A stretch of 47,787 bases of DNA. It comes from Rhodothermales bacterium (GTDB lineage Bacteria > Bacteroidota > Rhodothermia > Rhodothermales > Bin80). The position numbers and the translations under genes were made by a program. The stretch lies in NCBI GenBank assembly GCA_022821385.1, contig JAJEDR010000022.1, positions 1-47,787 of the forward strand, given 5' to 3'. How positions within the stretch are numbered: position 1 is the stretch's first letter; each line of letters starts with the position of its first letter. Below the pieces are notes generated by a model. It did not search any database. It saw only the letters and a program-made list of their open reading frames with translations, and was not told where the DNA came from. Positions 7,465 to 33,853 of this stretch are shown here, piece after piece.

Positions 7465-8310
7465 ATGGTAATGAGTCAAATAAGAACACCAAGATTAAAA
7501 TCTCTCCTTAACGACCTCCCTCCCGGATTCATCGTAGATACGGCGTGGTTGAGGGTTAGAGGGATTGACTCAAAGTCTACAAATCGCTACGTCAGCCAGG
7601 GATGGATTGAGCGTATCGTGCATGGAGTGTATCGCCGTCCACTGCCAAAAAGCGCCCACAACCGCCACAAACTGTCTTGGCCGGCAGTTCTTGTGTCCCT
7701 GCAACAACTTATGGAATACAATGTGCACTTAGGCCAGAGAAATGCTCTGAATCATGCCGGTCATGCCCATTATGTATGGATGGGGGAAGGACAAAGAATC
7801 CATCTCTACGGCAGTGCACCTTCCTGGCTTAAACGCCTCCCTACCACAGATGATATCATCTTGCATAAGTCCACATTATTCGGCGGCGATTCAATAGGGA
7901 TTATTGATAGCCATCCTGTTACCTCCGAAATGGATTGGACTGCAGGTATATGGAGTTGGCCCATAAAAGCATCATGCCCAGAGCGTGCAATTCTTGAATT
8001 GATTGCTGAACTGCGTGGGAATTCAGACTTTGAATATGTGGACCAGATCTTTGAACATTTGACAGGACTATGCCCCAAACTCCTCATGACACTCTTAAAG
8101 GCCTGCCGCAGCGTAAAGGTCCGGCGACTTTTTTTCGTATTCGCGGAACGGCAAAAGTTCGACTGGTTGGAAACCATGGAACTCCAAGAGATTGATTTCG
8201 GCAACGGACCGCGTGCACTTGTTCCAAATGGAAAGTTTCACCCTACCTATAATATCTCCCTTCCAGAGTTTTTCGTTGATACTTCATACGAAGATGCCTG
8301 CATCTTCTGA
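7465..8310 (+). CDS. AbiEi-type antitoxin/regulator, pair 1
   Basis: A 281-residue protein of the type IV toxin-antitoxin AbiEi family (AbiEi_3 with its N-terminal winged-helix domain). The diagnostic N-terminus is LLNDLPPGFIVDTAWLRVRG followed by the turn to GWIERIVHGVYRRP (about 14-57). The middle and C-terminal parts carry the HLG..NAL, GSAPSWLKRLP, SCPERAILELIAEL and KACRSVKVRRLFFVFAE segments. The family autoregulates its promoter and neutralises the AbiEii nucleotidyltransferase. The ATG at 7465 is preferred to 7471 because it aligns without gaps with the second copy and keeps a shared upstream motif (7448-7457) at the same distance. Its end overlaps the toxin gene by 17 bases. Confidence 0.88.
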   Translation: MVMSQIRTPRLKSLLNDLPPGFIVDTAWLRVRGIDSKSTNRYVSQGWIERIVHGVYRRPLPKSAHNRHKLSWPAVLVSLQQLMEYNVHLGQRNALNHAGHAHYVWMGEGQRIHLYGSAPSWLKRLPTTDDIILHKSTLFGGDSIGIIDSHPVTSEMDWTAGIWSWPIKASCPERAILELIAELRGNSDFEYVDQIFEHLTGLCPKLLMTLLKACRSVKVRRLFFVFAERQKFDWLETMELQEIDFGNGPRALVPNGKFHPTYNISLPEFFVDTSYEDACIF

Positions 8311-9214
8311 TTACTACAAACAGGTTGAGTTACTGGTAGACGTGCTACCAGCTGTCGCAAAGGAATCATCCTTTGCACTCAAAGGCGGAACCGCTATTAA
8401 TTTGTTCTACCAGGACATGCCAAGACTGTCCGTAGACATTGATCTTACATGGCTTCCTGTGGCTGACCGTTCGTCTTCACTCAGGAACATTGATACTGCG
8501 CTTAACCGCATTGCTGCTTCAATCAGAGATGCCCATCCCGGAACCACAGTAACACGTTTTCCGAATCAACGAATCGGCCTTCCACAAATCTATGTGAAAC
8601 GTAGTGAAGCTGATATAAAAATTGAGACGTCCACCACAGCACGCGGCACGGTAATGCCTGCCCGCATGCTTGAGGCGTCCCATTCCGCAACGAAACAGTT
8701 TGGATTCATAACAATGAATGTGGCCTCCTTTGAGGATGTATATGCTGGCAAGATCTGTGCAGCACTTGAACGGAAACACCCGCGAGACCTGTTTGACATT
8801 TTGGTACTTTATGAGAACGAGGGGATATCAGATGACCTCTTCCGTGTATTGTTGGTGTACATCGCAGCCTCACGCCGACCGATACACGAATCACTAGCAC
8901 CAACACGCCCGGTACGTGAAGAATGGTACAATGACCGGTTCAAGGGCATGAGCCGTATAGATGTCGGTTTGAAATCACTGGTTAAGACTGGCATGCGGCT
9001 ACATAACGATGTCGTATCAAGACTTACAGGTAAAATCACGACCTTTTTGCTCTTGCTCCACAATGCCGAGCCGGATTTCAGCTTGATTGGACTTCCCGAC
9101 GCTGCAAAATTGCCTGCAGTTCGCTGGAAGCTCTATAATCTGGAAAGGCTAAAGCGAGAAAATCCTCAAAAACATGCCGAACAGCAGAGCGCACTGGAAC
9201 GGCTACTCCAATAA
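8294..9214 (+). CDS. AbiEii/AbiGii-type nucleotidyltransferase toxin, pair 1
   Basis: A 306-residue minimal-nucleotidyltransferase-fold protein, the toxin partner in AbiE systems. The active site looks complete: KGGTAIN (30-36), then SVDIDLTW with Asp48 and Asp50, and the third carboxylate Glu111 in IKIET. The later family motif with Lys and RDLFD (AGKICAALERKHPRDLFD, about 150-167) is intact. AbiEii toxins transfer nucleotides to a target and stop growth, which underlies phage abortive infection. The ATG at 8294 was chosen over the longer open frame from 8192, because it overlaps the antitoxin by only 17 bases and matches the geometry of the second pair. Confidence 0.88.
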   Translation: MPASSDYYKQVELLVDVLPAVAKESSFALKGGTAINLFYQDMPRLSVDIDLTWLPVADRSSSLRNIDTALNRIAASIRDAHPGTTVTRFPNQRIGLPQIYVKRSEADIKIETSTTARGTVMPARMLEASHSATKQFGFITMNVASFEDVYAGKICAALERKHPRDLFDILVLYENEGISDDLFRVLLVYIAASRRPIHESLAPTRPVREEWYNDRFKGMSRIDVGLKSLVKTGMRLHNDVVSRLTGKITTFLLLLHNAEPDFSLIGLPDAAKLPAVRWKLYNLERLKRENPQKHAEQQSALERLLQ

Positions 9215-9483: not shown

Positions 9484-10326
9484 ATGTCTATTATCAATCA
9501 TAAAACTCCTAGATTAAAATTGCTTCTCAATGATCTACCCCCAGGCTTTATGATAGATACCGCATGCCTCCGGGCGAGGGGTATTGACTCAAAATCCACT
9601 CACAATTATGTTGGTCAAGGATGGCTTGAACACATCGTTCGAGGAGTCTACCGACGACCACTGTCTAACCGAGTGGAATCTGACAAATTGTCTTGGCAGG
9701 TAGTGCTTCTATCGCTTCAGCAGATCATGGGTTACAATCTGCACCTAGGTGGACGAAGCGCTCTGGGTTTTGCTGGTTATACCCAATTCATCACGACCGG
9801 AGAGAAACAGTATGTTGATTTCTACGGCGATGCTCCCTCCTGGCTTAAGCGACTGCCCACAAGGGACAAAATCACGCTAAATGGCCCCACGCTTTTTGGC
9901 AAAGATTCGGTTGGACTTATTGATCGGATTCCTATCACATACAAACGAAATTGGTCAGTAGATATTTGGCACTGGCCCGTAAGAATCTCATCTCCTGAAC
10001 GTGCACTCCTTGAAATGATTGATCAATTGCGGGAGAGTTCAGACTTCAATTACATGGAATTGTTCTTCGAAACCCTGCACTCCTTACGCCCTGAACTCCT
10101 GATGAGTCTCTTGAAAGCCTGCCGCAGTGTTAAGGTTCGAAGACTGTTTTTTGTTTTTGCGGACCTATACGAACATGCCTGGTGTGAATATCTTGATGCC
10201 GACCAGATTGATCTCGGCAGCGGACCTCGAGCACTCATTCCCGGAGGGAAGTTCCATCCTGCATATCAGATATCTGTGCCAGAATGTCTCCTCAGCACCC
10301 CCTACTATGATGACTGCATCTTCTGA
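9484..10326 (+). CDS. AbiEi-type antitoxin/regulator, pair 2
   Basis: A 280-residue paralogue of the protein at 7465-8310, similar along the whole length by eye. It has the same LLNDLPPGF start, the GWLEHIVRGVYRRP end of the DNA-binding domain, SAPSWLKRLP (here DAPSWLKRLP) and the almost identical block LLKACRSVKVRRLFFVFA. It is therefore a second AbiEi-type regulator. The 269 bases between pair 1 and this gene hold no other gene. GATATTGCTT at 9467-9476 sits 17 bases before the ATG, as GATATAGCTT does before copy 1. The end overlaps the next gene by 17 bases. Whether the two regulators cross-bind cannot be told from sequence. Confidence 0.87.
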   Translation: MSIINHKTPRLKLLLNDLPPGFMIDTACLRARGIDSKSTHNYVGQGWLEHIVRGVYRRPLSNRVESDKLSWQVVLLSLQQIMGYNLHLGGRSALGFAGYTQFITTGEKQYVDFYGDAPSWLKRLPTRDKITLNGPTLFGKDSVGLIDRIPITYKRNWSVDIWHWPVRISSPERALLEMIDQLRESSDFNYMELFFETLHSLRPELLMSLLKACRSVKVRRLFFVFADLYEHAWCEYLDADQIDLGSGPRALIPGGKFHPAYQISVPECLLSTPYYDDCIF

Positions 10327-11230
10327 TTGCCTTGATAAGGTCACACTGTTGATGGATGTACTGCCAAAAGTCGCTACAGAATCAGCCTTCGCGGTCAGGG
10401 GAGGCACTGCCATCAACATGTTCTATCAGAAAATGCCAAGGCTGTCTGTGAATATTGACCTCACATGGTTACCTGTTGCTGATCGTTCATCTTCGCTTAG
10501 GAATATTGACCGTGCTCTAAAGCGCATCGTTGCCTTGATCAGGGAGAATAATTCTGGAATCCATGCCCAATACTTAAAGCGAAAAAGGACCACCTTTCCC
10601 CGGATAATTGTGAATAAGGGGAAAACATTTGTGACGATTGCGACCTCTACAGTTGTCCGGGGTACGGTACTGCCCTCCAGCTCAATGATGACATTCGATT
10701 CCGTAACCAAGTATTTTCGGTCAATGCAAATGAATGTTGTCTCTTTTGAGGATGCTTACTCTGGAAAGATCTGTGCGGCACTTGAACGTAAGTATCCACA
10801 CGATCTGTTTGACGTAATGATGCTTTATAATAATGGAGGTCTTACAGATGATCTGTTCCGTGTACTTATGGTCTACGCTGCCTGTTCAAGTCAACCGATG
10901 CACAAAGTGCTATCGCCATCAAATCATATTCAGAAGGGGTTGTATGATCCCCACTTCGGGGGACTGGCCGAGAAGAGAACTTCTCTTGAATCTCTTATCG
11001 AAACTGGTAAGCGATTACACTCAGACATTGCGTCACGGCTTTCGGGTAAGATTGCAACATTTCTTCTTACCCTTCACGATGCCGAGCCAGATTTTGGATT
11101 GATTGGCTTTCCCAAAGCTGCAGAGCTTCCAGCAATTCGGTGGAAAATCTTTAACTTGAAAAAGATCAAGAATGCTTATCCCGAAAAGCACGCGAGGCAG
11201 CGCCGAGCGCTTGAGGCGTTATTGCACTAA
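10310..11230 (+). CDS. AbiEii-like nucleotidyltransferase with altered active site, pair 2
   Basis: A 306-residue paralogue of the toxin at 8294-9214, with identical length and a gap-free alignment over at least the first 112 residues. RGGTAIN (30-36) is kept, but the first metal-binding Asp of the DxD motif is Asn48 (AAT at that codon; NIDL instead of DIDL), and the third carboxylate is Ala111 (GCG instead of GAG). RDLFD of copy 1 is HDLFD here. Asp50, the Lys motif and the C-terminal body remain. The frame is open and uninterrupted. Family knowledge says the missing carboxylates hold catalytic metal ions, so the protein is probably inactive as a transferase. The ATG at 10310 (another at 10307) gives the same 17-base overlap as pair 1. 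Confidence 0.87.
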   Translation: MTASSDCLDKVTLLMDVLPKVATESAFAVRGGTAINMFYQKMPRLSVNIDLTWLPVADRSSSLRNIDRALKRIVALIRENNSGIHAQYLKRKRTTFPRIIVNKGKTFVTIATSTVVRGTVLPSSSMMTFDSVTKYFRSMQMNVVSFEDAYSGKICAALERKYPHDLFDVMMLYNNGGLTDDLFRVLMVYAACSSQPMHKVLSPSNHIQKGLYDPHFGGLAEKRTSLESLIETGKRLHSDIASRLSGKIATFLLTLHDAEPDFGLIGFPKAAELPAIRWKIFNLKKIKNAYPEKHARQRRALEALLH

Positions 11231-17540: not shown

Positions 17541-18356
17541 ATGGAAATCCCGCAAAACAACGGGCCACTGTCCAAAAAGTTCTACCGGAGAGAGCTGGCG
17601 AAACTACACGTAGAACTCGCGCGACTTCAACGCTATATTCGAATAAACAAAAAGCGTGTAGTCGTGCTATTTGAGGGACGAGATGCGGCTGGTAAGGGGG
17701 GAACAATCAAGCGCATTACAGAACCGCTTAACCCAAGGGTCTGCCGTATAGTAGCACTCTCCACACCCACAGAACGTGAAAGAACACAGTGGTATTTCCA
17801 GAGGTATGCAAATCATCTGCCGGCCGCTGGCGAGATGATTCTCTTTGATCGCAGTTGGTACAATCGTGCTGGTGTAGAGCGTGTAATGGGTTTCTGTTCC
17901 GAAGAGGAGTACTGGGAATTTCTGCGAGAATGTCCCATATTCGAACGTATGTTGATCCAGAACGGCATAACCTTGATCAAGTACTGGTTCTCCGTAAGCG
18001 CTGAAGAGCAGGAACGTAGATTCCGACGTAGGATTGAGGACCCAACAAGAAAATGGAAAATCAGCCCCATGGACATAGAATCAAGAGCTCGCTGGACCGA
18101 CTATTCGAGAGCAAAAGACCAAATGTTTCTGCACACAGACCTTCCGAATTCTCCTTGGTGGGTCATTGAGGCTGATGATAAACGCCGTGCAAGGCTGAAC
18201 TGCATTGCCCACCTTCTTGATCAAATCCCTTACAGCAGAATTGAGATACCGGAAATCACGCTCCCTCCTCTACAGTCAGACCAAGGCTATGTTCGCCCTG
18301 CTATGGACACACAGCGAATTGTGGACGATCAATTTTCCAAACCGGAGGACCCATAA
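17541..18356 (+). CDS. ppk2: Polyphosphate kinase 2 (PPK2 family)
   Basis: A 271-residue single-domain PPK2 with Walker A GRDAAGKGG (46-54) and the Walker B/lid motif DRSWYNRAGVERVMGFC (103-119). PPK2 enzymes use polyphosphate to phosphorylate nucleoside diphosphates or monophosphates. The sequence looks like the class that makes ATP or GTP from the diphosphate; that class assignment is inference. The N-terminal LHVELARLQRYI helix and LPNSPWWVIEADDK near the C-terminus agree with the family. It is divergent from metY and about 1.8 kb from the end of ppk1, so the genome has both polyphosphate kinases close together. Confidence 0.92.
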   Translation: MEIPQNNGPLSKKFYRRELAKLHVELARLQRYIRINKKRVVVLFEGRDAAGKGGTIKRITEPLNPRVCRIVALSTPTERERTQWYFQRYANHLPAAGEMILFDRSWYNRAGVERVMGFCSEEEYWEFLRECPIFERMLIQNGITLIKYWFSVSAEEQERRFRRRIEDPTRKWKISPMDIESRARWTDYSRAKDQMFLHTDLPNSPWWVIEADDKRRARLNCIAHLLDQIPYSRIEIPEITLPPLQSDQGYVRPAMDTQRIVDDQFSKPEDP

Positions 18357-20110: not shown

Positions 20111-22297
20111 TCAAAAGAGTTCCCACGGATGCTGTTGCTCTTCCTCCACCCAACTGGCACGAACACGAAGCAGCTCTTCCTGGACCGCAAGTCTCTCACC
20201 TGCCCCTTCCCGTCGACTATATTCACCATCCGCACCCAGATATCTGGCTTTAACCGTATCCCGGAGGTAGGATTCCAGCACAATATCTCGGAGATAGCGA
20301 ACATACTCTTCATCCTGAATCGGAAATAATACTTCCACCCGTCGATTTAGATTTCGGGGCATGAGGTCAGCACTCCCAAGGTAAATTTCCTCATCGCCTC
20401 CATTTGTGAAGTAATAAATACGGCTGTGTTCCAGAAAACGCCCTACAACACTGATCACGTTGATATTCTCGCTAATACCAGGTATCCCCGGTTTGAGGCA
20501 ACAAATACCGCGAACCAACAAGTCTATTCTAACGCCGGCCTGTGATGCTTCATAGAGTAATCGGATGATTCTTCCGTCCACGAGTGCATTGGTTTTTAGA
20601 ATCAGATGTGCTTCGCGTCCGGCCTTGCAGTGATCAATTTCGCGGTGAACCAATTCAGTGAACCGCTTTCTCAGGTTGATAGGAGCTATTATCAACTTGC
20701 TATAGTTACGTTTTTCAGAGTAGCCTGTCAGGAAGTTGAACAGATCTGAGGCGTCCTCGCCAATTTTCGGGTCTATCGTAAAGAACCCTAGGTCCTCATA
20801 GAGATGTGCTGTGACACTGTTGTAGTTACCGGTGGACAGGTGCACATACCGCCGAATATGCCCCCCCTCATTTCGAATCACCAGCGCCACCTTCGTATGC
20901 GTTTTAAGCCCGATGACACCATAAATCACATGGACACCTTCCCGCTCAAGTGCGCGGGCCCAACCAATGTTGCTTGCTTCATCAAAGCGGGCTTTCACCT
21001 CAACAAGCACGGCGACCTGTTTGCCGTTCTCCCTTGCTTTCATAAGGGCTCTCACGATTGGAGATCGACTTCCCACACGATAGAGCGTCATCTTGATCGC
21101 GAGTACGCTGGGATCCGTCGACGCGGCTTCCAAAAATTCTATCACGGGCGAAAACGAATCATAGGGATGATGAATCAAATGATTCTGTGCTCTCACTACC
21201 GTAAAAAAATCACCATCACGTGTCTCTGATTTCAACCTTAATGAAGTAAATGGCACGAACGGTTGATACTTGAGATCAAATCGATCAATCTCTGATATTG
21301 GCTCCATCAAACTCGCAAGCCCAAGCGGTCCATTAACTAGCACGACATCATTCTCATCGGTAGCCATATTTTCGATCAGAATTGTTCGCACCTGCTCTGG
21401 CATGTCTGGATTAACCGTAAGCCTCAACACAGAGCCGAGGCGACGCTGACGCACCCCCTGCTCCATGGTCTCCAGTAAATCATCTGCTTCCTGTTCCTGA
21501 ATAGTCAAATCCGCATTTCGCGTAATCCGGAAAGGATGTACGGCCTCTATTTTCATCCCAGGAAAAAGCGACTGCAGGTTTGCCGCAATCACCTGTTCCA
21601 CCCAGACAAAGGAATAAGCTCTCCGTGTAGATGAATTTGCCTTGATCGTCAAGGGCTCGGAAATGACAGGCATCAGACGAGACAGCGGTCGTGGTACCTT
21701 GACCCGCGCGAAACGCTCACCTCCTAACTCATCCCTTACAAGTACAGCCAGGTTGAGACTCAGATTCGAAATGTGCGGAAAAGGATGCGACGGATCGACG
21801 GCCAACGGCGTAAGTACCGGAAATATCGTTTGCTCGTACTTCCATGTAGCCTCCTCCTTCTGCCTGGCCGTTAATTCCGAGTAATCCAGAATCCGTATGC
21901 CCGATGCTGCCAATTCCGGAATGAGCGTTGTAAAAAGATACTCATGTGCCGTCTGCATCAATCGCCGCGCCTCCGTCCTTACTGCCAAAAGCTGCTCCGC
22001 CGGCGTTCGTCCATCAACCGAAAGATCTGTTACGCCACTCGCGACCTGCTTCTTGAGACCGCCCACACGCACCATATAAAATTCATCCAGATTTGAGCCG
22101 ACGATTGAGAGGAATTTCAAGCGCTCTAGTAATGGGTTATTCTCGTCCTGCGCTTCCTCAAACACGCGGTACTGAAAATCCAGTAGACTCAGTTCCCGGT
22201 TATTGTAAAGGGAAAAATCTTTCAGATCCAATACCTGTGGTTCGCCATTATTGGGAGAAACCAAAATGTCATTTTTCTCAGCTGTTTCAGTCATCAT
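20111..22297 (-). CDS. ppk1: Polyphosphate kinase 1
   Basis: A 728-residue PPK1 that reversibly transfers the gamma phosphate of ATP to a growing inorganic polyphosphate chain. The four-domain layout is complete: the N-terminal NRELSLLDFQYRV and NLDEFYMVRVGGL blocks, the head domain, then two catalytic C-terminal domains. The phosphorylated His is His467 in IGLKTHTKVALV, the second catalytic His is His624 in GRFLEHSRIYYF, and HLSTGNYN (486-493) lies between. The start at 22297 has a second ATG at 22294. It is divergent from the TonB-dependent receptor, and the shared 166-base region carries Pho-box-like repeats, suggesting induction when phosphate is scarce. Confidence 0.96.
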   Translation of the reverse strand: MMTETAEKNDILVSPNNGEPQVLDLKDFSLYNNRELSLLDFQYRVFEEAQDENNPLLERLKFLSIVGSNLDEFYMVRVGGLKKQVASGVTDLSVDGRTPAEQLLAVRTEARRLMQTAHEYLFTTLIPELAASGIRILDYSELTARQKEEATWKYEQTIFPVLTPLAVDPSHPFPHISNLSLNLAVLVRDELGGERFARVKVPRPLSRLMPVISEPLTIKANSSTRRAYSFVWVEQVIAANLQSLFPGMKIEAVHPFRITRNADLTIQEQEADDLLETMEQGVRQRRLGSVLRLTVNPDMPEQVRTILIENMATDENDVVLVNGPLGLASLMEPISEIDRFDLKYQPFVPFTSLRLKSETRDGDFFTVVRAQNHLIHHPYDSFSPVIEFLEAASTDPSVLAIKMTLYRVGSRSPIVRALMKARENGKQVAVLVEVKARFDEASNIGWARALEREGVHVIYGVIGLKTHTKVALVIRNEGGHIRRYVHLSTGNYNSVTAHLYEDLGFFTIDPKIGEDASDLFNFLTGYSEKRNYSKLIIAPINLRKRFTELVHREIDHCKAGREAHLILKTNALVDGRIIRLLYEASQAGVRIDLLVRGICCLKPGIPGISENINVISVVGRFLEHSRIYYFTNGGDEEIYLGSADLMPRNLNRRVEVLFPIQDEEYVRYLRDIVLESYLRDTVKARYLGADGEYSRREGAGERLAVQEELLRVRASWVEEEQQHPWELF

Positions 22298-22360
22298 CAG
22301 ACTTGAACTATAGCGGGATTGGTTCCGTAACGAATAACCGGAATTGATGATTCAATTGCG

Positions 22361-22401
22361 TGTTACAAAAATTTAACATCACGTTTGCATTTAGGTAACA
22401 T
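22361..22401. promoter_or_regulatory. Tandem Pho-box-like direct repeats, four half sites at 11-bp spacing
   Basis: Four 8-mers ending in CA plus A or T lie exactly 11 bases apart: TGTTACAA (22361), TTTAACAT (22372), GTTTGCAT (22383) and GGTAACAT (22394). Three-base spacers separate them. Seven-base half sites at 11-base period, ending CAT with A+T-rich spacers, is the architecture of PhoB/PhoP binding sites (E. coli half site CTGTCAT). The site lies between the divergent ppk1 and TonB-receptor genes, 63 bases before the receptor ATG and 64 bases before that of ppk1. A weak -10-like TATAGC follows at 22404-22409. The repeat spacing is seen; PhoB binding is inference. Confidence 0.6.
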
Positions 22402-22463
22402 CCTATAGCCCACCTGTGCATTGAACTGCTCCGAAGAACTATCTCACAAGCCTCAAATTCTTC

Positions 22464-25460
22464 ATGCCTTTTTATCGCGGCGTCGGTCTGATGGTGGTGC
22501 TTCCGACGCTACTGCTTCTACTCACTCACCCGGTCAAAGCCCAAACCGGTACACTGGCGGGCATTATTGTTGACGGCGAAAATGGCGAAACATTGATCGG
22601 AGCCACTGCCGTCATCGCCGGAACCAGTACCGGAGATGCAACCGACCTAAACGGAAGGTACGAATTTGTAGCCGAGCCTGGAACTTATACAATGGTATTT
22701 TCCTATCTGGGTTTCACCTCCGTTACTGTAGAGGATGTTGTTGTTACCGAGGGAGAAATCACCCGGCTGGAAATTGAACTCTTCAACGAGGCCCTCTCCT
22801 ACGGCGAGGTGTATGTGACCGCTTCCGTCTTAGCGGGCTCTGAGGCGGGCCTGCTGCGTGAGCGTGCCAAGGCAGTAGCTGTCAGCGATGCCATCAGTGC
22901 TGAGTCAATCAGTCGCTCTGGATCAGGCGATGCGGCAGCAGCCATGACTAAAGTGACCGGGGCCTCTGTCGTTGGTGGCCGCTATGTGTACATCCGGGGC
23001 TTGGGTGATCGCTATGCAAGCACAACACTGAACGGATCAACTTTGCCCAGCGCAGATCCAGATCGCAAAGCATTTCAATTAGACCTTTTTCCCTCTGCGC
23101 TCCTTGATAATATTGTAACACTGAAAACCTTTACACCCGACAAACCGGGGGATTTCAGTGGTGGTTTGGTTGATGTTTCCACAAAGGCTTTCCCGGAGTC
23201 ATTTACACTGCAGGTATCGGCGTCAATGACGTACGATGATCAGTCAAGTCGAATTGACAACTTCCTTACCTATGCCGGCAGTGATACAGACTGGCTTGGA
23301 TTCGACAATGGCCTGCGTGCTTTACCAGATGTTCTTGAGAACAAGGATCCCACTGAACAATTGCCTCGAGAATCGGACCTGCGTGACTTGCGGCGTGGCA
23401 CAACCAACCTGATTCGTACAGCCCGTGCCGATTCTTTGAATTCCTTTTCACGGGCATTTAACAACGTTATGTCGCCCTCCTTCGCATCTACCCCTGTAAA
23501 TCATAGCTTCTCCGCTGCTGCAGGGGGACGACTCATGCTCTTTGGTCGACCGCTTGGCCTGACAGGTAGCCTTACCTATAGCAGAAGCTATAACTATTAC
23601 GACGATGGTGTATTTAGTCAATGGCGCCTTATTGGTGGAGATGTTACATCCGTAGAAAACCTATTTAGCACAACATATTTCGGTCCAGAACCAGATTTGG
23701 ACATCATTACAAAGGCAGATCCGAAAGAGGTTGCGTCATTCCAAAACATTCAGGGCAGTGACGAAGCTACCTGGGGCGGCTCCGGTACAATAGCCTTCCA
23801 ACCCAGTGATAATCATGAGATAGTCTTCACCGCGCTCCGCACACAGAGTGGTGTCAGTCAGTCCACACTGTTAAGTGGTTTTCGTGACCAGACCGGAGGT
23901 GCAACTTTTGTTACACGCGCGCTGGACTATGAGGAGCGTGCCCTGCAAAGCTATCAATTCAGAGGGGAACATGGTTTTGCTCCTATCCAAATAGAATGGA
24001 AGGTCTCACTTGCACAGAACTCACAGGAAGAACCCGATCTTCGATTCTTCTCCTCTACCCAGAACATTAGAGAAGGCACTGGTGGTATTGACACAACTTA
24101 TTCCCTTGGAGGTGGCAATGCACCACCTCCACAGCGTTACTTTCGTAACCTGAACGAAAACAGCCAAGGCGCCATTCTAGATATTACCCTTCCCTTTCGT
24201 CAATGGGGCGGATTGGGGGCCCGTATCAAATTTGGAGGACGCTTCGACAGCTCTGAGCGAGAGTTCAGGCAACGACGCTTTGAATATCATGAAGGACGAG
24301 AAGTCGACTACAGGGACTTTGGGGGTAATGCAGAAAGCTACTTTTCGGATGATAATCTAGGCGTATTGGACACGCTCAATGTTGGTGATATCGTAGCCTA
24401 TAACGCTGGACTCTATCTGCAGGAAAACTCACCCAGTCGTGCCAATTACGATGCTTCCCGTGATATTCTGGCCGGGTATTTCATGATTGAACTGCCACTC
24501 ACTCGTCAATTGAAAATAGTCGGGGGTGCCAGAATAGAAACAACCGAAATGCTCACGGAGAGCTTCGATCAAAACCTGCCGGATTCGCTGCAAACAGGCT
24601 TGCTGGACATTTCAGACTGGCTCCCGTCCATCAACGTTGTTTATGCGATAACCGAGGATATGAACCTGCGAGTCGCTGCTACACGTACCTTGGCCCGCCC
24701 AACCTACCGAGAGCTCGCACCCTTCCAGAGTTTCAATTTTGTTGGCGGCGATATTCAAGAGGGAAATCCACTTCTTAACCGCACACTGATAACCAACTTC
24801 GATGTACGCTGGGAAAAGTTTGCTCGTGCTGGTGGAATTCTTGCAGTAAGTGGTTTTTACAAGCTGTTTGATGATCCTATTGAACGAGTCCTGCGCAATG
24901 TGGGAGAAGGGCGCTTCGTGTCTTTCCAGAACGTAGATCATGCCCGTGTCTTCGGGCTTGAACTTGAAGCCCGCAAACGATTGGATACCTGGACCACCAT
25001 TCGTGTAGTCAAGAACCTTTCACTTGGCGGCAATTTCTCACTCGTGCGCTCGCAGGTGGACATCCCGGAGGAAGAGATGGTCATCATCCGGGCCTCAGAT
25101 CCAAATGCCAGCACTACCCGCTCATTGGAAGGGCAGTCTCCATTCCTGCTCAACCTCAGCGCAAGTTACGAGAATTATAATCTGGGAACGGTAGTTGGCG
25201 TCTACTATACGGTGTTCGGTGATCGACTCCTGTCTGTAACAGAAGGCGCGACCCCCGATGTATTCGAAAAAGCCAGAGGTGATCTAGATTTGACTATTTC
25301 GCAAGATTTACCCGCAAACCTGCGCCTCAAGCTAACTGCAAGAAACTTGCTTGGCGCAGATGTGCGTCAAATCCAGACCTTCAAAGGTCGTGTTTATGAT
25401 TATAGTTCGTATTCCCGATCTAGGACGATCGGACTAGGAATCAGTTATATAATTGATTGA
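22464..25460 (+). CDS. TonB-dependent outer-membrane receptor with CarboxypepD_reg-like domain
   Basis: A 998-residue outer-membrane active-transport receptor. Order: signal peptide (1-26, ending VKAQ), an Ig-like CarboxypepD_reg-like domain (about 28-115: LAGIIVDGENGETLIGA, then the YEF..EPGTYTM strand), a plug domain (about 120-260, with YVYIRGLGDRYASTTLNG and FSGGLVDVSTKAFP) and a long 22-strand-type barrel ending in RTIGLGISYIID, with the terminal hydrophobic residues expected for BAM insertion. The ligand cannot be read directly. Its position between ppk1 with Pho-like sites and genes for a secreted protein and Na/Pi transporter suggests a phosphorus compound. SusD-like partners are absent. 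Confidence 0.92.
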   Translation: MPFYRGVGLMVVLPTLLLLLTHPVKAQTGTLAGIIVDGENGETLIGATAVIAGTSTGDATDLNGRYEFVAEPGTYTMVFSYLGFTSVTVEDVVVTEGEITRLEIELFNEALSYGEVYVTASVLAGSEAGLLRERAKAVAVSDAISAESISRSGSGDAAAAMTKVTGASVVGGRYVYIRGLGDRYASTTLNGSTLPSADPDRKAFQLDLFPSALLDNIVTLKTFTPDKPGDFSGGLVDVSTKAFPESFTLQVSASMTYDDQSSRIDNFLTYAGSDTDWLGFDNGLRALPDVLENKDPTEQLPRESDLRDLRRGTTNLIRTARADSLNSFSRAFNNVMSPSFASTPVNHSFSAAAGGRLMLFGRPLGLTGSLTYSRSYNYYDDGVFSQWRLIGGDVTSVENLFSTTYFGPEPDLDIITKADPKEVASFQNIQGSDEATWGGSGTIAFQPSDNHEIVFTALRTQSGVSQSTLLSGFRDQTGGATFVTRALDYEERALQSYQFRGEHGFAPIQIEWKVSLAQNSQEEPDLRFFSSTQNIREGTGGIDTTYSLGGGNAPPPQRYFRNLNENSQGAILDITLPFRQWGGLGARIKFGGRFDSSEREFRQRRFEYHEGREVDYRDFGGNAESYFSDDNLGVLDTLNVGDIVAYNAGLYLQENSPSRANYDASRDILAGYFMIELPLTRQLKIVGGARIETTEMLTESFDQNLPDSLQTGLLDISDWLPSINVVYAITEDMNLRVAATRTLARPTYRELAPFQSFNFVGGDIQEGNPLLNRTLITNFDVRWEKFARAGGILAVSGFYKLFDDPIERVLRNVGEGRFVSFQNVDHARVFGLELEARKRLDTWTTIRVVKNLSLGGNFSLVRSQVDIPEEEMVIIRASDPNASTTRSLEGQSPFLLNLSASYENYNLGTVVGVYYTVFGDRLLSVTEGATPDVFEKARGDLDLTISQDLPANLRLKLTARNLLGADVRQIQTFKGRVYDYSSYSRSRTIGLGISYIID

Positions 25461-25617
25461 TTCTGCAAGCGTGAATCACTCTCAAGCTTTCCCCTTCAGA
25501 CTTGGTATTTGGCGAATTGCATATGCCTTTCCACTACCATTTTCGGGAAAAAGCATCCCCTTGTTTTTCTTTGCCGGGGGATAACTCACACTCTCACAAA
25601 CTCGAGTTAAACTACTC

Positions 25618-27372
25618 ATGCGAAAGACTTTTACTGCTCTTCTTGCTGCACTCTTATTGTTTGTGCCTGTACGTGAAGCTGCTGCTCAACTTGATGATGT
25701 TGAATCCCGTCCGACAGTCACGGTAACAGATGGTGATATTGGGGCAGGCGATGAGGTCCGATGGACCGCTGATAATGTATATGTCCTGGACGGTCTTGTT
25801 ATCGTGGAAGACGGTGCGATGTTACACATTGACGCCGGAACCGTTATCAAAGCTCAGGACAGAACGGGAACAGACGCTTCTGCGCTTGTGGTCGCCCGGG
25901 GAGGCAAGATATTTGCCGAAGGGACACCAACTCAACCCATCATATTTACCTCGGTTCAGGATAACATCTCTACTCCCGATTTACTGACGTACGAAGATCG
26001 CGGTCTCTGGGGAGGCATCGTCATCCTGGGACATGCAGGAACAAACAACCCAGGCGATGCCGCCGGCGACTTCAAGGAAATCGAGGGAGTTAATGAACTC
26101 GTGCCCGATGGGGACACACGTGCCGAATATGGCGGTACTGTAGATGACGATAACTCTGGGGTTATGCGCTATGTCTCCATCCGGCACACCGGCATCAATA
26201 TCGGTGAGTCGGACGGCAACGAGATCCAAGGCTTAACCTTGGGAGGCGTTGGCTCCGGTACAGTACTTGAGCACATTGAGGTCTTTGCCAGTGGTGATGA
26301 TGGTGTGGAATTCTTCGGAGGCACCGTTAACCTGAAGTACTTCGTGAGCGTCTTCAATTCCGACGACGCGGTTGATTGGGATCAGGGCTGGCGCGGTAAA
26401 GGGCAGTTCTGGTTTGTACTTCAGGGTACCGATAAAGCCGGAGCTGCTGCGGAGCAGGATGGTGCCGGAGGCGATGAACACTTCCAGCCCTATGCTATCC
26501 CGGAAATCTATAACGTCACCTATGTTGGAGCCGGGTCCGATGCTTCTCCCGAATCAGATCGCGGAGAAATGCTCATGTTCCGTGACAATTCCGGTGGATT
26601 CTATCATAACTCAATCTTCACACAGTTCAATACGGGCAAGGGAGGACATGCCCTCCAAATTGAAGACATTGATAACACAGGATCCAAAACAGAGGACAGT
26701 CGCCAACGGTTTGAGGCCGGGGACCTCGGTCTGACTCACAATATCTGGTGGGATTTCGGGGCCGGAGTTGACCCCCAGACCTGGATCGCAGGTAGTGATC
26801 CCGCGTTTGTGGCCGCTGTACTTACATACCTTCTAGCCAATGGAAATGATACCGTTGATCCACAGCTGCGAGGAATTGAGCGCGGAACGGAGGGAACGGG
26901 AACGCTTGACCCAAGGCCTCACAGTAACAGTCCCGCATTTACGCTTTCCAGGGCTGACTATCCTGACGACGATCATTTCTTCTCCGAAACCAATTATATC
27001 GGCGCTTTTGGCAGCGAGAACTGGCTGGTTGGATGGACTGCACTTGACGAACTAGGATATACAGCCGTCCCAACATCTATTGAGCAGGTTTCTGTAGCAG
27101 AAATACCTTCCGAAATTTCACTCAATCAGAATTATCCAAACCCCTTCAACCCTGTCACCACCGTTGAATTTGACCTCGACCGTGCGCAGAATGTCATCCT
27201 TACAGTGCATGACATTATGGGACGACAGCTAGCAGTTCTTGTTGACAGCCAGAAAGCTGCTGGCACTTACCGTGTGCTGTTTGACGCGAGCAACCTGTCA
27301 AGCGGTCTCTACCTCTACAGACTGCATACGCAGGCTGGAAGCCTGACTCGCAAAATGACGCTACTTAAATAG
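25618..27372 (+). CDS. Secreted protein with T9SS type A C-terminal sorting domain
   Basis: A 584-residue exported protein: signal peptide 1-24 (ending AAAQ), a large middle region rich in Gly, Asp and short strands (GGIVILGHAGTNN, GVMRYVSIRHTG, LEHIEVFASGDDGVEFFGG, LKYFVSVFNSDDAVDWDQGW) that reads like a parallel beta-helix, and a type IX secretion sorting domain at about 505-584 with NYPNPFNPVTTVEFDL and a GLYLYRLHT..G..TRKMTLLK ending. Beta-helix surface proteins often bind or process polymers, but no catalytic motif was found. It starts 157 bases after the TonB receptor and is probably its functional partner at the cell surface; that is inference. Confidence 0.88.
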   Translation: MRKTFTALLAALLLFVPVREAAAQLDDVESRPTVTVTDGDIGAGDEVRWTADNVYVLDGLVIVEDGAMLHIDAGTVIKAQDRTGTDASALVVARGGKIFAEGTPTQPIIFTSVQDNISTPDLLTYEDRGLWGGIVILGHAGTNNPGDAAGDFKEIEGVNELVPDGDTRAEYGGTVDDDNSGVMRYVSIRHTGINIGESDGNEIQGLTLGGVGSGTVLEHIEVFASGDDGVEFFGGTVNLKYFVSVFNSDDAVDWDQGWRGKGQFWFVLQGTDKAGAAAEQDGAGGDEHFQPYAIPEIYNVTYVGAGSDASPESDRGEMLMFRDNSGGFYHNSIFTQFNTGKGGHALQIEDIDNTGSKTEDSRQRFEAGDLGLTHNIWWDFGAGVDPQTWIAGSDPAFVAAVLTYLLANGNDTVDPQLRGIERGTEGTGTLDPRPHSNSPAFTLSRADYPDDDHFFSETNYIGAFGSENWLVGWTALDELGYTAVPTSIEQVSVAEIPSEISLNQNYPNPFNPVTTVEFDLDRAQNVILTVHDIMGRQLAVLVDSQKAAGTYRVLFDASNLSSGLYLYRLHTQAGSLTRKMTLLK

Positions 27373-27399
27373 AGCTTCTACCCGACATTCCATTGTAAT

Positions 27400-27436
27400 A
27401 ACGTCGGGTTCCTCACGTAGGGGACCCGACGTTTTT
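27400..27436 (+). terminator. Rho-independent terminator-like hairpin just upstream of the Na/Pi gene
   Basis: AACGTCGGGT (27400-27409) pairs perfectly with ACCCGACGTT (27424-27433), and the T run 27432-27436 follows. It ends 13 bases before the ATG of the Na/Pi cotransporter. An extra ACCCGAC at 27380-27386 could instead pair with GTCGGGT inside the first arm, which would break the terminator stem. This may simply end the upstream transcript, or act as an attenuator within the operon. Confidence 0.7.
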
Positions 27437-27449
27437 CCACTTTATTACC

Positions 27450-28601
27450 ATGACAAAACCAGACCAAAACAACTTGTCGAGGATCCAACGCCTCTCGCCA
27501 CTCCTGCCGCTGCTTGGGTTGCTCGGTGTGTTGTTTTGCTTTTTCGTCAGTTTAGAGCTCATGGGGACATCCATGAAGCTATTAGGGGAGGGCTTTGCTG
27601 AACAACTGGTTCGGACTACAAGTAATCCGTTCATAGCCCTCTTCATCGGTATCCTTGCAACCTCTCTGGTACAAAGCTCATCCACAGTAACCTCATTGGT
27701 GGTTTCTGCCGTAGCCGGCGGGGGACTAACTGTCGCAGGTGCCATTCCAATAGTGCTTGGAGCTAACGTGGGTACCAGCGTGACAAATACAATTGTTTCG
27801 CTGGGCCATATCGGGAGAAAGGACGAATTCGGCAGAGCCGTGGGGGCTGCCACAGTGCATGATTTTTTCAACCTGCTGGCAGTCGCGATCTTTTTCCCGC
27901 TAGAATTAATCTTTGGATTCCTGTCTAGTTCGTCTGCTGCACTTGCTGCCGGAGTAACTGGCGTAGGCGGAACTGAGTTGTTTGATTTTGTCGGTGTGAT
28001 GACTGCGCCGATAGTAAGTGGCCTGGTTACTTTGATGCTGGACTCAGGCGTGTTAGTCCTGATACTTGGTGTTCTACTTCTGTTCTTTTCTCTTCGCTAT
28101 CTGGTAGTACTCCTGCGCAGACTGTTTCTCGGCCGGTCAGAGCGACTCATCAATAAATACTTGTTTGGTCCTGTACCGATTGCACTTGCCTTCGGTACAC
28201 TCGTGACCATCATGGTGCAAAGCTCATCAATCACAACATCAATTACGGTTCCCTTGGTTGGGGCAGGTATTGTAACCGTATCACAAATCTTCCCATTTGT
28301 GCTGGGTGCAAACATTGGTACAACGGTCACCGCACTATTGGCTTCACTCGTTTTGGCAAGTGGAGGCAGTGTGTTAGGAGCCGCTGCCTTGCAGGTTGCA
28401 CTTGCTCATCTCATATTCAATTGTTGTGGGGTAATTACCTTCCTACCCTTCCGAACGATGCGGAGAATTCCAATACGTATGTCTGAATTATTAAGTCTGC
28501 TTGTCGTGAAGAATCGTGCTTGGGCATTTGGGTATGTTGCTTGTATTTTCTTTCTTGTTCCGCTAGTGATAATTCTGTTAACACGTAACCTAGGTTCCTG
28601 A
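27450..28601 (+). CDS. Na/Pi-cotransporter family protein
   Basis: A 383-residue inner-membrane transporter of the Na+/Pi cotransporter (SLC34/NptA-like, PF02690) family. The two inverted half repeats are plain: LVQSSSTVTSLVV (QSSS at 75-78) with GANVGTS (104-110), and MVQSSSITTSI (QSSS at 257-260) with GANIGTT (286-292). The protein has about eight to ten hydrophobic segments and lacks the C-terminal PhoU-like domain of YjbB-type members. It would bring phosphate across the inner membrane with sodium. It follows the T9SS gene, with a hairpin in the leader. A reverse transport role is possible for this family. Confidence 0.92.
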   Translation: MTKPDQNNLSRIQRLSPLLPLLGLLGVLFCFFVSLELMGTSMKLLGEGFAEQLVRTTSNPFIALFIGILATSLVQSSSTVTSLVVSAVAGGGLTVAGAIPIVLGANVGTSVTNTIVSLGHIGRKDEFGRAVGAATVHDFFNLLAVAIFFPLELIFGFLSSSSAALAAGVTGVGGTELFDFVGVMTAPIVSGLVTLMLDSGVLVLILGVLLLFFSLRYLVVLLRRLFLGRSERLINKYLFGPVPIALAFGTLVTIMVQSSSITTSITVPLVGAGIVTVSQIFPFVLGANIGTTVTALLASLVLASGGSVLGAAALQVALAHLIFNCCGVITFLPFRTMRRIPIRMSELLSLLVVKNRAWAFGYVACIFFLVPLVIILLTRNLGS

Positions 28602-30650: not shown

Positions 30651-31610
30651 ATGAATCGACGAGACTTTGTACAGTGGGTATTGACCGTTGGATCAGCTGC
30701 ACTGATTCAGCGGCACAAACCAAACGACAGCGACGAATTGCCCCGCCGCCCATTCGGTCGTACAAATGAAGAAGTTACCATGCTTGGCCTCGGAGGCTGG
30801 CATATTGGACGAATGAATGAACGGGATGCCCAAGCTACTATAGAAGCCGCTATGGAGGGTGGTGTTCGCTTCTATGATTCAGCGGAGTCATACCAGCGTG
30901 GAGGAAGCGAACGTTATTTAGGCAGATTCCTGGTCCCGCAATGGCGGGACCAAGTCTATCTGATGTCAAAAACAACTGCAACTACGGCTAAGGGTGCGCG
31001 AGAGCATCTTGAAGGTACACTACGGAGATTCAACACCGAGCAAATGGATCTCTGGCAAATGCATGCAATAACCAGTCCACAAGACGTTGATCGGCGAATT
31101 GAGGCAGGTGTACTTGATGTAATGGAGCAGGCCCTCGCAGAGGGTAAAACCCGTCACATCGGTTTTACAGGTCATACTGATCCCGCGGCGCATCGCCACC
31201 TCCTTGAACAGACTGATATATTCCATGCTGTTCAATGCCCCGCCAATGTAGCAGACGTAAGCTACAAGAGCTTCGTACGAACGGTAATTCCGAAAGTCGT
31301 AGAGCGAAATATGGGCATGATTGCCATGAAAACACTTGCAAATGGGGGATTTTTTGGGGGTTCTAATCATGGACAGCATGGCAATCGGCCACGTGTTGTA
31401 CCAATCCATTTGTCTATCCAGGAAGCGCTGCACTTCGTATGGTCCCTTCCGGTCAGCGTGATCGTTACCGGTCCAGACAATATCGAACAACTCCGCGAGA
31501 AAATTGCCTTAGCTCGGACTTTTATAGGTATGTCAGAGTCTGACAGGAATGAACTCGTTGCACGCATCGCAGACATGGCCGGGCGTGGAGTGGAATTCTA
31601 CAAGGCATAA
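30651..31610 (+). CDS. Aldo/keto reductase with Tat-type signal
   Basis: A 319-residue aldo/keto reductase. The N-terminus MNRRDFVQWVLTVGSAALI has twin arginines followed by a hydrophobic run, so export through the Tat pathway is likely. The barrel shows LGLGGWHIG, the catalytic Asp and Tyr of YDSAESY (about 53-59), the Lys of LMSKT, a His in MHAI and the NADPH-binding VIVTGPDNIEQLRE near the C-terminus. The frame is open further upstream to 30579 inside the preceding gene, but the ATG at 30651 begins the signal. Substrate unknown. It lies between the PRTase and a CarboxypepD_reg protein, both closely spaced. Confidence 0.9.
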   Translation: MNRRDFVQWVLTVGSAALIQRHKPNDSDELPRRPFGRTNEEVTMLGLGGWHIGRMNERDAQATIEAAMEGGVRFYDSAESYQRGGSERYLGRFLVPQWRDQVYLMSKTTATTAKGAREHLEGTLRRFNTEQMDLWQMHAITSPQDVDRRIEAGVLDVMEQALAEGKTRHIGFTGHTDPAAHRHLLEQTDIFHAVQCPANVADVSYKSFVRTVIPKVVERNMGMIAMKTLANGGFFGGSNHGQHGNRPRVVPIHLSIQEALHFVWSLPVSVIVTGPDNIEQLREKIALARTFIGMSESDRNELVARIADMAGRGVEFYKA

Positions 31611-31641
31611 CGCCGTCTATATTCCAACTAGATTGGATACG

Positions 31642-32760
31642 ATGAAACGAGTGTTAACCTTCATGTTGTTGCTTGTCTCTGCCCAACTTGCAGAAGCTCA
31701 GATTGCAGCGACAATTACCGGCACCATAACCGACTCTACGGGAGCGCCGATTGCACAGGCAAATGTCTTCATTGCCTCATCAATGGCCGGGACAACTACC
31801 GATGACAATGGTCTCTATGAGTTGCCCGGCATCCCGCTGGGCACCCTGCGCCTCGTGGCGTCCCGTATAGGGTACGAACCCGACCACGTTGATCTGTTTG
31901 TGCGCGAGGCACGCACATACACGCATGATTTTCAGCTTCGGGAAAAAATTTACGAGATCGGGGAAGTAACGGTATCTACCAATAATCGAAGGTGGCAGCG
32001 GCAATTGGAACGATTTACAAACATATTCATCGGTGAGAGTCCAAATGCTCAGGAAACCACTATCATGAACCCCGAGGTGCTGGATTTTTCGGGGAGTGGT
32101 GGAGAATTCAGGGCACAGGCAAGTGAACCCTTAATCATAGAGAATAAGGCCCTTGGGTATAAGCTGACCTATTTTCTGAATGAGTTTATTGCAGAACCAA
32201 ATAGCTGGCGGTGGGACGGGGAACCACTTTTTGAACCACTGGAACCCTCTAGTCCAGAAGAGGCAGCCCGATGGAGCGCCAAGCGCGACTCGGCCTTCTA
32301 TGGATCCTTCAGGCATTTCCTTCTCTCAGTCATTAATGATCAAGTAGAGGAACAGGGCTTCAAGATTTACTCTCGCCCCGGCTCCAATCAACGTGTACTG
32401 GATCTACGCGGTGGAGTGTCCGGTAACCGGGACAACCGTTTTCCTATTAAGGCCTCAGATATTATTCGAGCCGGACAATATGATGATGAGCGAATTCTGG
32501 ATTTTGAGGGCTATATAGATGTGGTTTATACACATGAACTGGAAGATGCGGCCTACCTAAGATTGCAACGACGGGCAGGACGAGCGCGTTATCAGACTTC
32601 ACCAATCCGGCTTGATCACGGACCAACTGCGGTGGATCTTAAAGGGGACACTCTGGATCCTTATGGCGTCACTTTCTACGGCGGATATTTTGCTTATGAG
32701 CGTACAGGGGATCAGCTTCCAAAGGAATTTCGCCCATGGACTCAGGGCGAAAGTTTCTAG
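31642..32760 (+). CDS. Exported CarboxypepD_reg-like protein, copy 1
   Basis: A 372-residue exported protein: signal peptide 1-20 (ending AEAQ), a CarboxypepD_reg-like beta-sandwich at about 24-112 (TGTITDSTGAPIAQANVFIA, DDNGLYEL, GYEPDHVDL), and a family-specific C-terminal region at about 115-372 with WQRQLERFTNIFIGES, the block QASEPLIIENKALGYKLTYFL and a W..KR..AFYGSFRHFLLS motif. The function is unknown; such proteins are common in Bacteroidota-type envelopes. The frame is open from 31549, but the signal peptide sets the ATG at 31642. It is a paralogue of the next gene and 31 bases after the reductase gene. Confidence 0.82.
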   Translation: MKRVLTFMLLLVSAQLAEAQIAATITGTITDSTGAPIAQANVFIASSMAGTTTDDNGLYELPGIPLGTLRLVASRIGYEPDHVDLFVREARTYTHDFQLREKIYEIGEVTVSTNNRRWQRQLERFTNIFIGESPNAQETTIMNPEVLDFSGSGGEFRAQASEPLIIENKALGYKLTYFLNEFIAEPNSWRWDGEPLFEPLEPSSPEEAARWSAKRDSAFYGSFRHFLLSVINDQVEEQGFKIYSRPGSNQRVLDLRGGVSGNRDNRFPIKASDIIRAGQYDDERILDFEGYIDVVYTHELEDAAYLRLQRRAGRARYQTSPIRLDHGPTAVDLKGDTLDPYGVTFYGGYFAYERTGDQLPKEFRPWTQGESF

Positions 32761-33853
32761 GAGCTCAACTTACTTGGCCTTGCTTTTACTGAGCAATGCT
32801 GCACTCTTCTGTGTAGCATCTGCACAAGATCCTGTACTTACGGGTACCGTTGCCGATGCAGAATCCGAACGTTTACTGCCGAGGGCGCATGTATTCATTG
32901 CGTCTTCGATGATCGGAACGACTACCGACAGAGATGGCAAGTTTGTTCTCAAAGGTGTACCCCCTGGGGCGCATCGCCTAGTTGTCACAATGCTTGGATA
33001 CGAGCCAGTCCATGTCGACACATTGTTCCGGGCCGGAAATCAATACGAATTTGATCTTCACCTCAAGTCTACGACTATTGAACTGGAGGAGGTCGTCGTT
33101 AATGCACGACTGGCTCGCAAATGGCAAAGACGCCTGATTAAATTCACACGCCTGTTTCTGGGAGAGACCGAAAACAGCGATCTAACCACCCTCCTGAACC
33201 CCGAAGCCCTCAGCTTTACAAGTCGACTTGGCAAACTATCTGCTACGGCCAGCGAGCCGTTGATCATTGAGAACCGTGCACTGGGTTACCAAGTCCAGTA
33301 CTACTTGAAGGAATTTTTTCACTACGGCAATACGATCAAGTACGATGGCGAGCCCTCCTTTACGGAACTTGTCCCAACCGACAGCCTCGAAGCTGAGCGC
33401 TGGCGAGTCAACAGACAGGCAACTTTTGCCGGATCGCAACGACATTTTTTACTCTCTGTTCTGGCAGGTAAAGCAGAGGAAGAAGGATTTGAAGTCTATC
33501 GGAGGTTCTCACTTGAACCCAACCGCTCAGGGTTTCTCATGGACTCCAACCAATTGCTTGAACCTGGTCCCAGTCCACTTGAAAGAATACTCACCTTCAC
33601 CGGTGTTCTGGAGATCGTGTACACCAAGGAAACAGAAGACAACAACTTTAAGCAATGGCAGCGTCTACCCGAATGGAGTCGCCCTGGGCCTCAGCGTTCA
33701 TTTATGGAACTGACCTCCGGCCCCACAGCTATTGACAAATCTGGAGAAGTGATTGACCCTTACGGTGTGAGGGTCTATGGTTATTATGCCTTTGAGCGCG
33801 TTGCCGACAAGGTGCCAAAAGAGTATCGCCCTCCTGATTGGGCTCACAAATAG
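32696..33853 (+). CDS. Exported CarboxypepD_reg-like protein, copy 2
   Basis: A 385-residue paralogue of the preceding protein with the same layout: signal region around residues 25-44 (ending SAQ), CarboxypepD_reg-like domain (TGTVADAESERLLPRAHVFIASS, GYEPVHVDT), then WQRRLIKFTRLFLGET, ASEPLIIENRALGYQVQYYL and GSQRHFLLSVL. The start is uncertain. The ATG at 32696 lies inside the previous gene (65-base overlap) and gives a 25-residue basic N-region before the signal core; a TTG nearer to the core is also possible. The tandem arrangement indicates gene duplication. The ligand or partner is unknown. Confidence 0.8.
   Translation: MSVQGISFQRNFAHGLRAKVSRSSTYLALLLLSNAALFCVASAQDPVLTGTVADAESERLLPRAHVFIASSMIGTTTDRDGKFVLKGVPPGAHRLVVTMLGYEPVHVDTLFRAGNQYEFDLHLKSTTIELEEVVVNARLARKWQRRLIKFTRLFLGETENSDLTTLLNPEALSFTSRLGKLSATASEPLIIENRALGYQVQYYLKEFFHYGNTIKYDGEPSFTELVPTDSLEAERWRVNRQATFAGSQRHFLLSVLAGKAEEEGFEVYRRFSLEPNRSGFLMDSNQLLEPGPSPLERILTFTGVLEIVYTKETEDNNFKQWQRLPEWSRPGPQRSFMELTSGPTAIDKSGEVIDPYGVRVYGYYAFERVADKVPKEYRPPDWAHK

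Follow-up and report, generated by a model that had tools for sequence, protein, structure and literature searches.

A TonB receptor and β-helix exoprotein pair at a candidate phosphate-starvation uptake locus of a Rhodothermales bacterium

A candidate phosphorus uptake locus

The stretch of DNA analysed here (the window; all 47,787 nucleotides of contig JAJEDR010000022.1, assembly GCA_022821385.1, from a Rhodothermales bacterium) carries four intact genes at positions 20111–28601, where a polyphosphate kinase gene (ppk1) is divergent from a TonB-dependent receptor gene that is followed by genes for a surface exoprotein and a Na/Pi cotransporter. The receptor and exoprotein form a pair that is present in at least ten phyla, and we consider it likely that the arrangement is an outer-membrane uptake locus responding to phosphate starvation. 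The bacterium of the window probably scavenges phosphorus with this pair. A sequence-only reading of the window had proposed such a path, and it is supported because the neighbours of the pair elsewhere are of phosphate type, the operator is conserved across phyla and the pair corresponds, by homology, to the ElpS/CC0171 pair of Caulobacter crescentus, of which ElpS is induced by starvation for inorganic phosphate (Pi). Profile scans bear out the four genes as that reading had named them, including a receptor that lacks a SusD partner.

The ppk1 gene (20111–22297, minus strand) encodes a polyphosphate kinase 1 of 728 amino acids, whose four PP_kinase Pfam domains and TIGR03705 score of 836.1 bits (curated cut-off 465.85) place it within PPK1. 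The receptor (22464–25460, plus strand; 998 amino acids) comprises CarboxypepD_reg, plug and barrel domains in Pfam and NCBIfam and adopts a TonB-receptor fold in an AlphaFold2 model with a mean predicted local distance difference test (pLDDT) of 85; its nearest NCBIfam model, TIGR01782, scores under the cut-off. Profile scans with Pfam and NCBIfam found no SusD domain in the cluster, which thus lacks the SusD-like lipoprotein partner of SusCD and PusCD systems. The exoprotein (25618–27372, plus strand; 584 amino acids) consists of a signal peptide, a right-handed β-helix and a C-terminal domain of the type IX secretion system (T9SS), and the Na/Pi cotransporter (27450–28601, plus strand; 383 amino acids) is SLC34/NptA-like. 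This gene order is kept in the 14 loci of the window's family that were examined. We reject a simple four-gene operon on the grounds of the divergent ppk1 and of a hairpin ahead of the Na/Pi gene, and a SusCD-type sugar locus on the grounds that SusD is lacking and that no carbohydrate-active enzyme is among the common neighbours.

The pair is widespread and adjoins phosphate genes

Of 99 genomes of the order, 78 encode an orthologue of the receptor, and in the 60 neighbourhoods examined there the receptor gene is almost always followed by that of an exoprotein homologue. A scan seeded with the exoprotein alone returned 78 loci, from phyla labelled Rhodothermota, Balneolota, Ignavibacteria, Calditrichota, Latescibacterota, KSB1, Kapaibacteria, Verrucomicrobiota, Zixibacteria, Gemmatimonadota, Bacteroidota and others. 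Outside the order, the receptor lies within 600 bp of the exoprotein and on the same strand in 30 of the 32 loci with sufficient flank. In six exoprotein homologues (L058, L059, L062, L063, L141 and L195), the β-helix domain is present two or three times in tandem within one chain.

The genes that adjoin the pair are recurrently those of phosphate acquisition. Outside the family, PstS is found beside the pair in eight loci (L121, L124, L132, L135, L136, L147, L149, L185) and PhoB-type regulators in ten, and the pair is also accompanied by Pst permease genes (L132, L135, L136, L138, L155, L157, L185), by PhoU (L096, L098, L101, L138, L155, L157) and by ppk1, which is divergent as in the window at L155, L157 and L174 of the Latescibacterota and is also present at L165. 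By rough arithmetic, for a genome of 4 Mb, chance would place such a phosphate gene in about 1% of 16 kb stretches. Outside the order, 115 immediate neighbours of the pair were tallied by Pfam family in an untargeted way; this tally, in which loci of one phylum are non-independent, is led by PstS (6), response regulator/Trans_reg_C (5) and PPK1 (4), together with permeases of the major facilitator superfamily (MFS; 4) and ABC permeases (4), and the corresponding NCBIfam tally is led by ptsS_2 and PhoB. Unrelated uptake genes, which would have spoken against the sequence-only reading, do not dominate these neighbourhoods. Neither SusD nor a glycoside hydrolase is among the 25 commonest neighbour families outside the order, and phosphatase and phosphodiesterase families are missing from the common immediate neighbours of the pair. 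In Alteromonas, the pair adjoins genes annotated as phoB, phoR and phosphate-binding protein.

Within the order, most Rhodothermales outside the window's family carry an MFS permease gene divergent from the receptor (for example L060 and L066–L072), and at five loci (L061, L062, L063, L118 and L131) the place that Na/Pi has in the window, behind the exoprotein gene, is taken by an MFS permease. From this placement, the linked permease is a candidate importer of phosphate or phosphoesters.

A putative PhoB-type operator array upstream of the receptor

The intergenic space between ppk1 and the receptor contains a putative PhoB/PhoP-type operator (22363–22401, plus strand), in which the half-sites TTACA, TAACA, TTGCA and TAACAT begin at 22363, 22374, 22385 and 22396 and are therefore spaced by exactly 11 bp. 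PhoB and PhoP boxes are known to be built of direct repeats with this spacing, and the Pho-like operator of the sequence-only reading is confirmed in this form. The 3.39 Mb genome has a single copy of the four-half-site pattern, and the reversed pattern, used as a control, has no match in ten congeners. In a comparison across the genus, the array is the conserved portion of an otherwise diverged intergenic region, with TAACATC at the last half-site invariant. Less stringent patterns were discarded: the two-half-site version is uninformative, with fewer matches than its reversed control, and a three-half-site TAAY version matched two other sites, neither of which is near a phosphate gene. Congeners contain two additional four-half-site matches, both close to unrelated genes and apparently due to chance in AT-rich sequence.

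The array extends beyond the genus. A TAAC array scoring at least 14/16 at a lag of 11 is present in 31 of 102 receptor upstream regions from many phyla, compared with 0 of 102 at lags of 7–10 or 12–16. Arrays were found upstream in 32 of 170 receptor scans and for 14 of 1646 unlabelled other genes of the same loci, some of these 14 sharing the intergenic region of the receptor. A PhoB-like regulator and an adjacent histidine kinase are encoded in the window's own genome on another contig (C49), and this PhoB/PhoR-like pair is the best candidate regulator of the array. Ten regulators adjacent to the receptor/exoprotein pair elsewhere all have the same best match among the regulators of this genome, namely this PhoB-like regulator (locus L186). 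Control of the locus by PhoB through the predicted operator would be consistent with these observations.

Predicted fold and export of the exoprotein

The AlphaFold2 model of the exoprotein (pLDDT 90) shows a right-handed β-helix spanning approximately residues 30–470, followed by the T9SS C-terminal domain. Among solved structures, its closest folds are those of tailspikes, of alginate epimerases and lyases, and of polygalacturonases (Z up to 22.5), and a sequence search of the PDB with the exoprotein profile gave no meaningful match. The only domain found in the protein by profile is the T9SS type A sorting domain (residues 506–580, 27133–27357, plus strand), with a PF18962 (Por_Secre_tail) score of 37.8 bits over a cut-off of 27 (E 2.3e-9). 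This domain also finds structural matches among T9SS C-terminal domains, such as those of NucA and PorU. As the genome also encodes SprA (277.9 bits), both the tail and the secretion system of a T9SS type A substrate are present, and the surface export that characterizes ElpS/CC0171-type pairs is predicted to take this route. Most exoprotein homologues carry a T9SS tail, seven have a lipobox instead, and the alphaproteobacterial homologues adjoin genes of the type II secretion system (T2SS). Within the exoprotein alignment, two acidic clusters (Asp227, Asp228 and Glu231; Asp249, Asp250, Asp253 and Asp255) and two arginines (Arg189 and Arg322) are invariant, and Arg422 is nearly so; together, these residues could plausibly form a metal or anion site.

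The Na/Pi transporter and the phosphate complement of the family

The Na/Pi protein contains two Na_Pi_cotrans (PF02690) repeats that score over the Pfam cut-off and carry QSSS motifs, and contains no PhoU domain. Its score of 189.8 bits against the SLC34/NptA model TIGR01013 falls below the curated cut-off of 306.15. Directly ahead of its start codon is a conserved hairpin (27400–27436, plus strand) with a long stem and a T-run, the stem sequences of which differ among relatives, with compensatory changes at 7 of 16 consensus pairs across five sequences. These features suggest a terminator or an attenuator.

The linked Na/Pi gene is the sole PF02690 gene of its genome. PstS was detected in 0 of 16 family genomes (the control being positive in 13 of 14 known genomes), compared with 63 of 99 genomes of the order; PitA-type PHO4 exceeds its cut-off in 0 of the 16, and PhoU is absent from the window's own genome. 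The family therefore appears to lack Pst and Pit importers, the two kinds to which the search was directed. By hand tally across the order, the short Na/Pi type represented here occurs in 28 of 37 genomes without PstS versus 9 of 62 others (Fisher p ~1e-9), and outside the family in 12 of 21 versus 9 of 62 (p ~3e-4), both statistics being calculated irrespective of shared ancestry.

Other features of the window

A second polyphosphate kinase gene, ppk2 (17541–18356, plus strand; TIGR03707 371.7 bits, cut-off 301.8), lies 2 kb beyond ppk1 and is a near neighbour in 11 of the 14 family loci, such that the region contains two polyphosphate kinases; ppk2 may be a member of the system. Neither ppk2 nor the hairpin ahead of Na/Pi had been noted in the sequence-only reading. 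No Rfam family was matched in the window. Labels of metagenome-assembled genomes hint that near relatives may come from marine sponges. Two similar, successive two-gene units at 7465–9214 and 9484–11230 resemble AbiEi/AbiEii-type toxin-antitoxin systems by eye, and two tandem paralogues of ~400 amino acids at 31549–33853 have carboxypeptidase-regulatory-like N-termini.

Proposed mechanism and alternative explanations

During Pi shortage, a PhoB-like regulator would bind the array of 11-bp repeats and switch on the receptor and exoprotein genes, and possibly the divergent ppk1. The exoprotein would be exported and anchored by the T9SS and would bind or process a phosphorus-bearing ligand at the cell surface before passing it to the TonB receptor, which would draw it into the periplasm. 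Pi would then enter via the Na/Pi symporter, and the surplus would be stored as polyphosphate through a flux attributed here to PPK1, an enzyme identified by its profile matches. Both the ligand of the pair and its transport are predicted. The inner-membrane partner would vary by lineage, with Na/Pi here, the MFS permease in other Rhodothermales and Pst in other phyla. More tentatively, and with appreciable doubt, we suggest a modular phosphorus scavenger of many phyla, in which a constant core of β-helix exoprotein, TonB receptor and 11-bp operator is combined with exchangeable export (T9SS, lipoprotein or T2SS) and exchangeable importers (Na/Pi, MFS permease or Pst), where it would replace Pst-PhoU in the window's family and where the linked MFS permease of other Rhodothermales would import phosphate or phosphoesters, a role not recognised so far.

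Several observations weigh against a phosphate-starvation uptake locus. Of the combined path in the sequence-only reading, the phosphate linkage of the pair holds across phyla, but Na/Pi is an immediate neighbour of the pair only within the window's family and ppk1 only there and in the Latescibacterota. Since pdxH and DinB-like genes are as syntenic as Na/Pi within the family, the linkage of Na/Pi and ppk1 could be inherited gene order. Given the terminator-like hairpin, simple co-transcription of Na/Pi with the pair is unlikely. Approximately two thirds of the receptor upstream regions score under the array threshold (14/16). A shared fold does not establish function, and nothing certain about phosphate follows from the β-helix. 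In Caulobacter, cc0171 was reported to be constitutive and a change in intracellular phosphate was undetected (PMC2996285).

The ligand may also be other than Pi. We see an even chance that the substrate of the pair is phosphorus in organic or condensed form (phosphoesters, nucleic acids, phosphorylated glycans or polyphosphate), with the β-helix binding or cleaving a polymer and the receptor importing the fragment, which is a sub-case of the uptake locus with a different ligand. TonB receptors normally take ligands exceeding porin size, and in structure the exoprotein comes closest to polysaccharide lyases, epimerases, polygalacturonases and tailspikes; in addition, overproduction of ElpS raises extracellular phosphatase activity (PMC2996285) and Lidbury et al. 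suggested organic phosphorus for FI proteins (PMC8115612). However, the common immediate neighbours, which are devoid of phosphatases and phosphodiesterases, include the Pi-specific PstS and Na/Pi.

That the pair imports carbohydrates or metals, with the adjoining phosphate genes present by chance or inherited synteny, appears improbable. Such a role would fit a β-helix fold typical of glycan-active enzymes, the iron complexes, vitamins and glycans that most TonB receptors import, and the confinement of Na/Pi adjacency to one family, but it would leave unexplained the repeated presence, in several phyla, of PstS, PhoB, PPK1 and Pst genes beside the pair, the 11-bp PhoB-type array, the lack of SusD and glycoside hydrolases among the commonest neighbours and the Pi-starvation induction of relatives (PMC2996285, PMC8115612). 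We regard it as similarly unlikely that sensing, or help with secretion of the exoprotein, is the main task of the receptor in place of transport: its strict pairing with the exoprotein would allow this, and sensing has been considered for CC0171, but ElpS production continued after deletion of cc0171 (PMC2996285) and the predicted plug and barrel are those of a TonB transporter.

Relationship to known systems

Beyond porins and SusCD-like systems, little is understood of how phosphorus crosses the outer membrane of Pi-starved Gram-negative bacteria. Accounts of the pair in Caulobacter and Flavobacterium have been piecemeal; in the present analysis it emerges as a widespread module whose operator is conserved. 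In the window's lineage, for which neither Pst nor Pit was found, the pair may be the principal way in for phosphorus. An uncharacterised MFS family gains a candidate role, and the locus offers clear gene-deletion and binding tests.

ElpS of C. crescentus is secreted on phosphate starvation and is linked to extracellular phosphatase activity, and a functional interaction with the receptor CC0171 was already proposed by its authors (PMC2996285); the phosphate response of the elpS promoter depends on the phosphate regulator (PMC5172544). Sphingomonas and Indioceanicola have the gene order exoprotein, TonB receptor, gspC/N, gspD and gspE, as has been described for cc0170 (elpS)/cc0171 of Caulobacter and for relatives (PMC2996285). 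The homology of the window's pair to ElpS/CC0171 was measured through this Sphingomonas version: the exoprotein shares 46% identity over 212 amino acids with the gsp-linked protein in the ElpS position (E 7e-35), and the adjacent receptor, of the same kind, shares 27% over 923 amino acids (E 3e-55). Both proteins are also homologous to the Alteromonas pair (receptor E 1e-78). In contrast to the T2SS-exported lipoprotein of Caulobacter, the window has the receptor first and then a T9SS-tailed exoprotein, with ppk1 and Na/Pi alongside and no Pst system found in the family.

The F. johnsoniae PUSIII cluster comprises a TonB-dependent transporter (TBDT, Fjoh_3857), a polygalacturonase-like lipoprotein (FI, Fjoh_3856), T9SS proteins and a ppk-like gene (Fjoh_3851), all induced by Pi starvation (PMC8115612). 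By description, it resembles the window in that a TonB transporter without SusD adjoins a surface protein of polygalacturonase-like type, and in its T9SS proteins and polyphosphate-kinase-like gene, but differs in that FI is a lipoprotein and that the cluster contains sigma/FecR regulators and a protease, with Na/Pi not reported there. PusCD and SusCD likewise pair a TonB transporter with a surface-exposed partner, whereas the partner here is a β-helix protein rather than SusD and the common neighbours include neither glycan nor phosphatase genes. The predicted Na/Pi transporter shares its two Na_Pi_cotrans repeats and QSSS motifs with SLC34/NptA, from which its sub-threshold TIGR01013 score sets it apart. 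The pair would thus be the T9SS version of ElpS/CC0171 and of FI/TBDT, and judged by its homology to the former and its resemblance to PUSIII it is of a kind already known; new in the window are the T9SS tail in place of T2SS or lipoprotein export, the adjacent Na/Pi and ppk1 genes, and the setting in a family without PstS and PitA.

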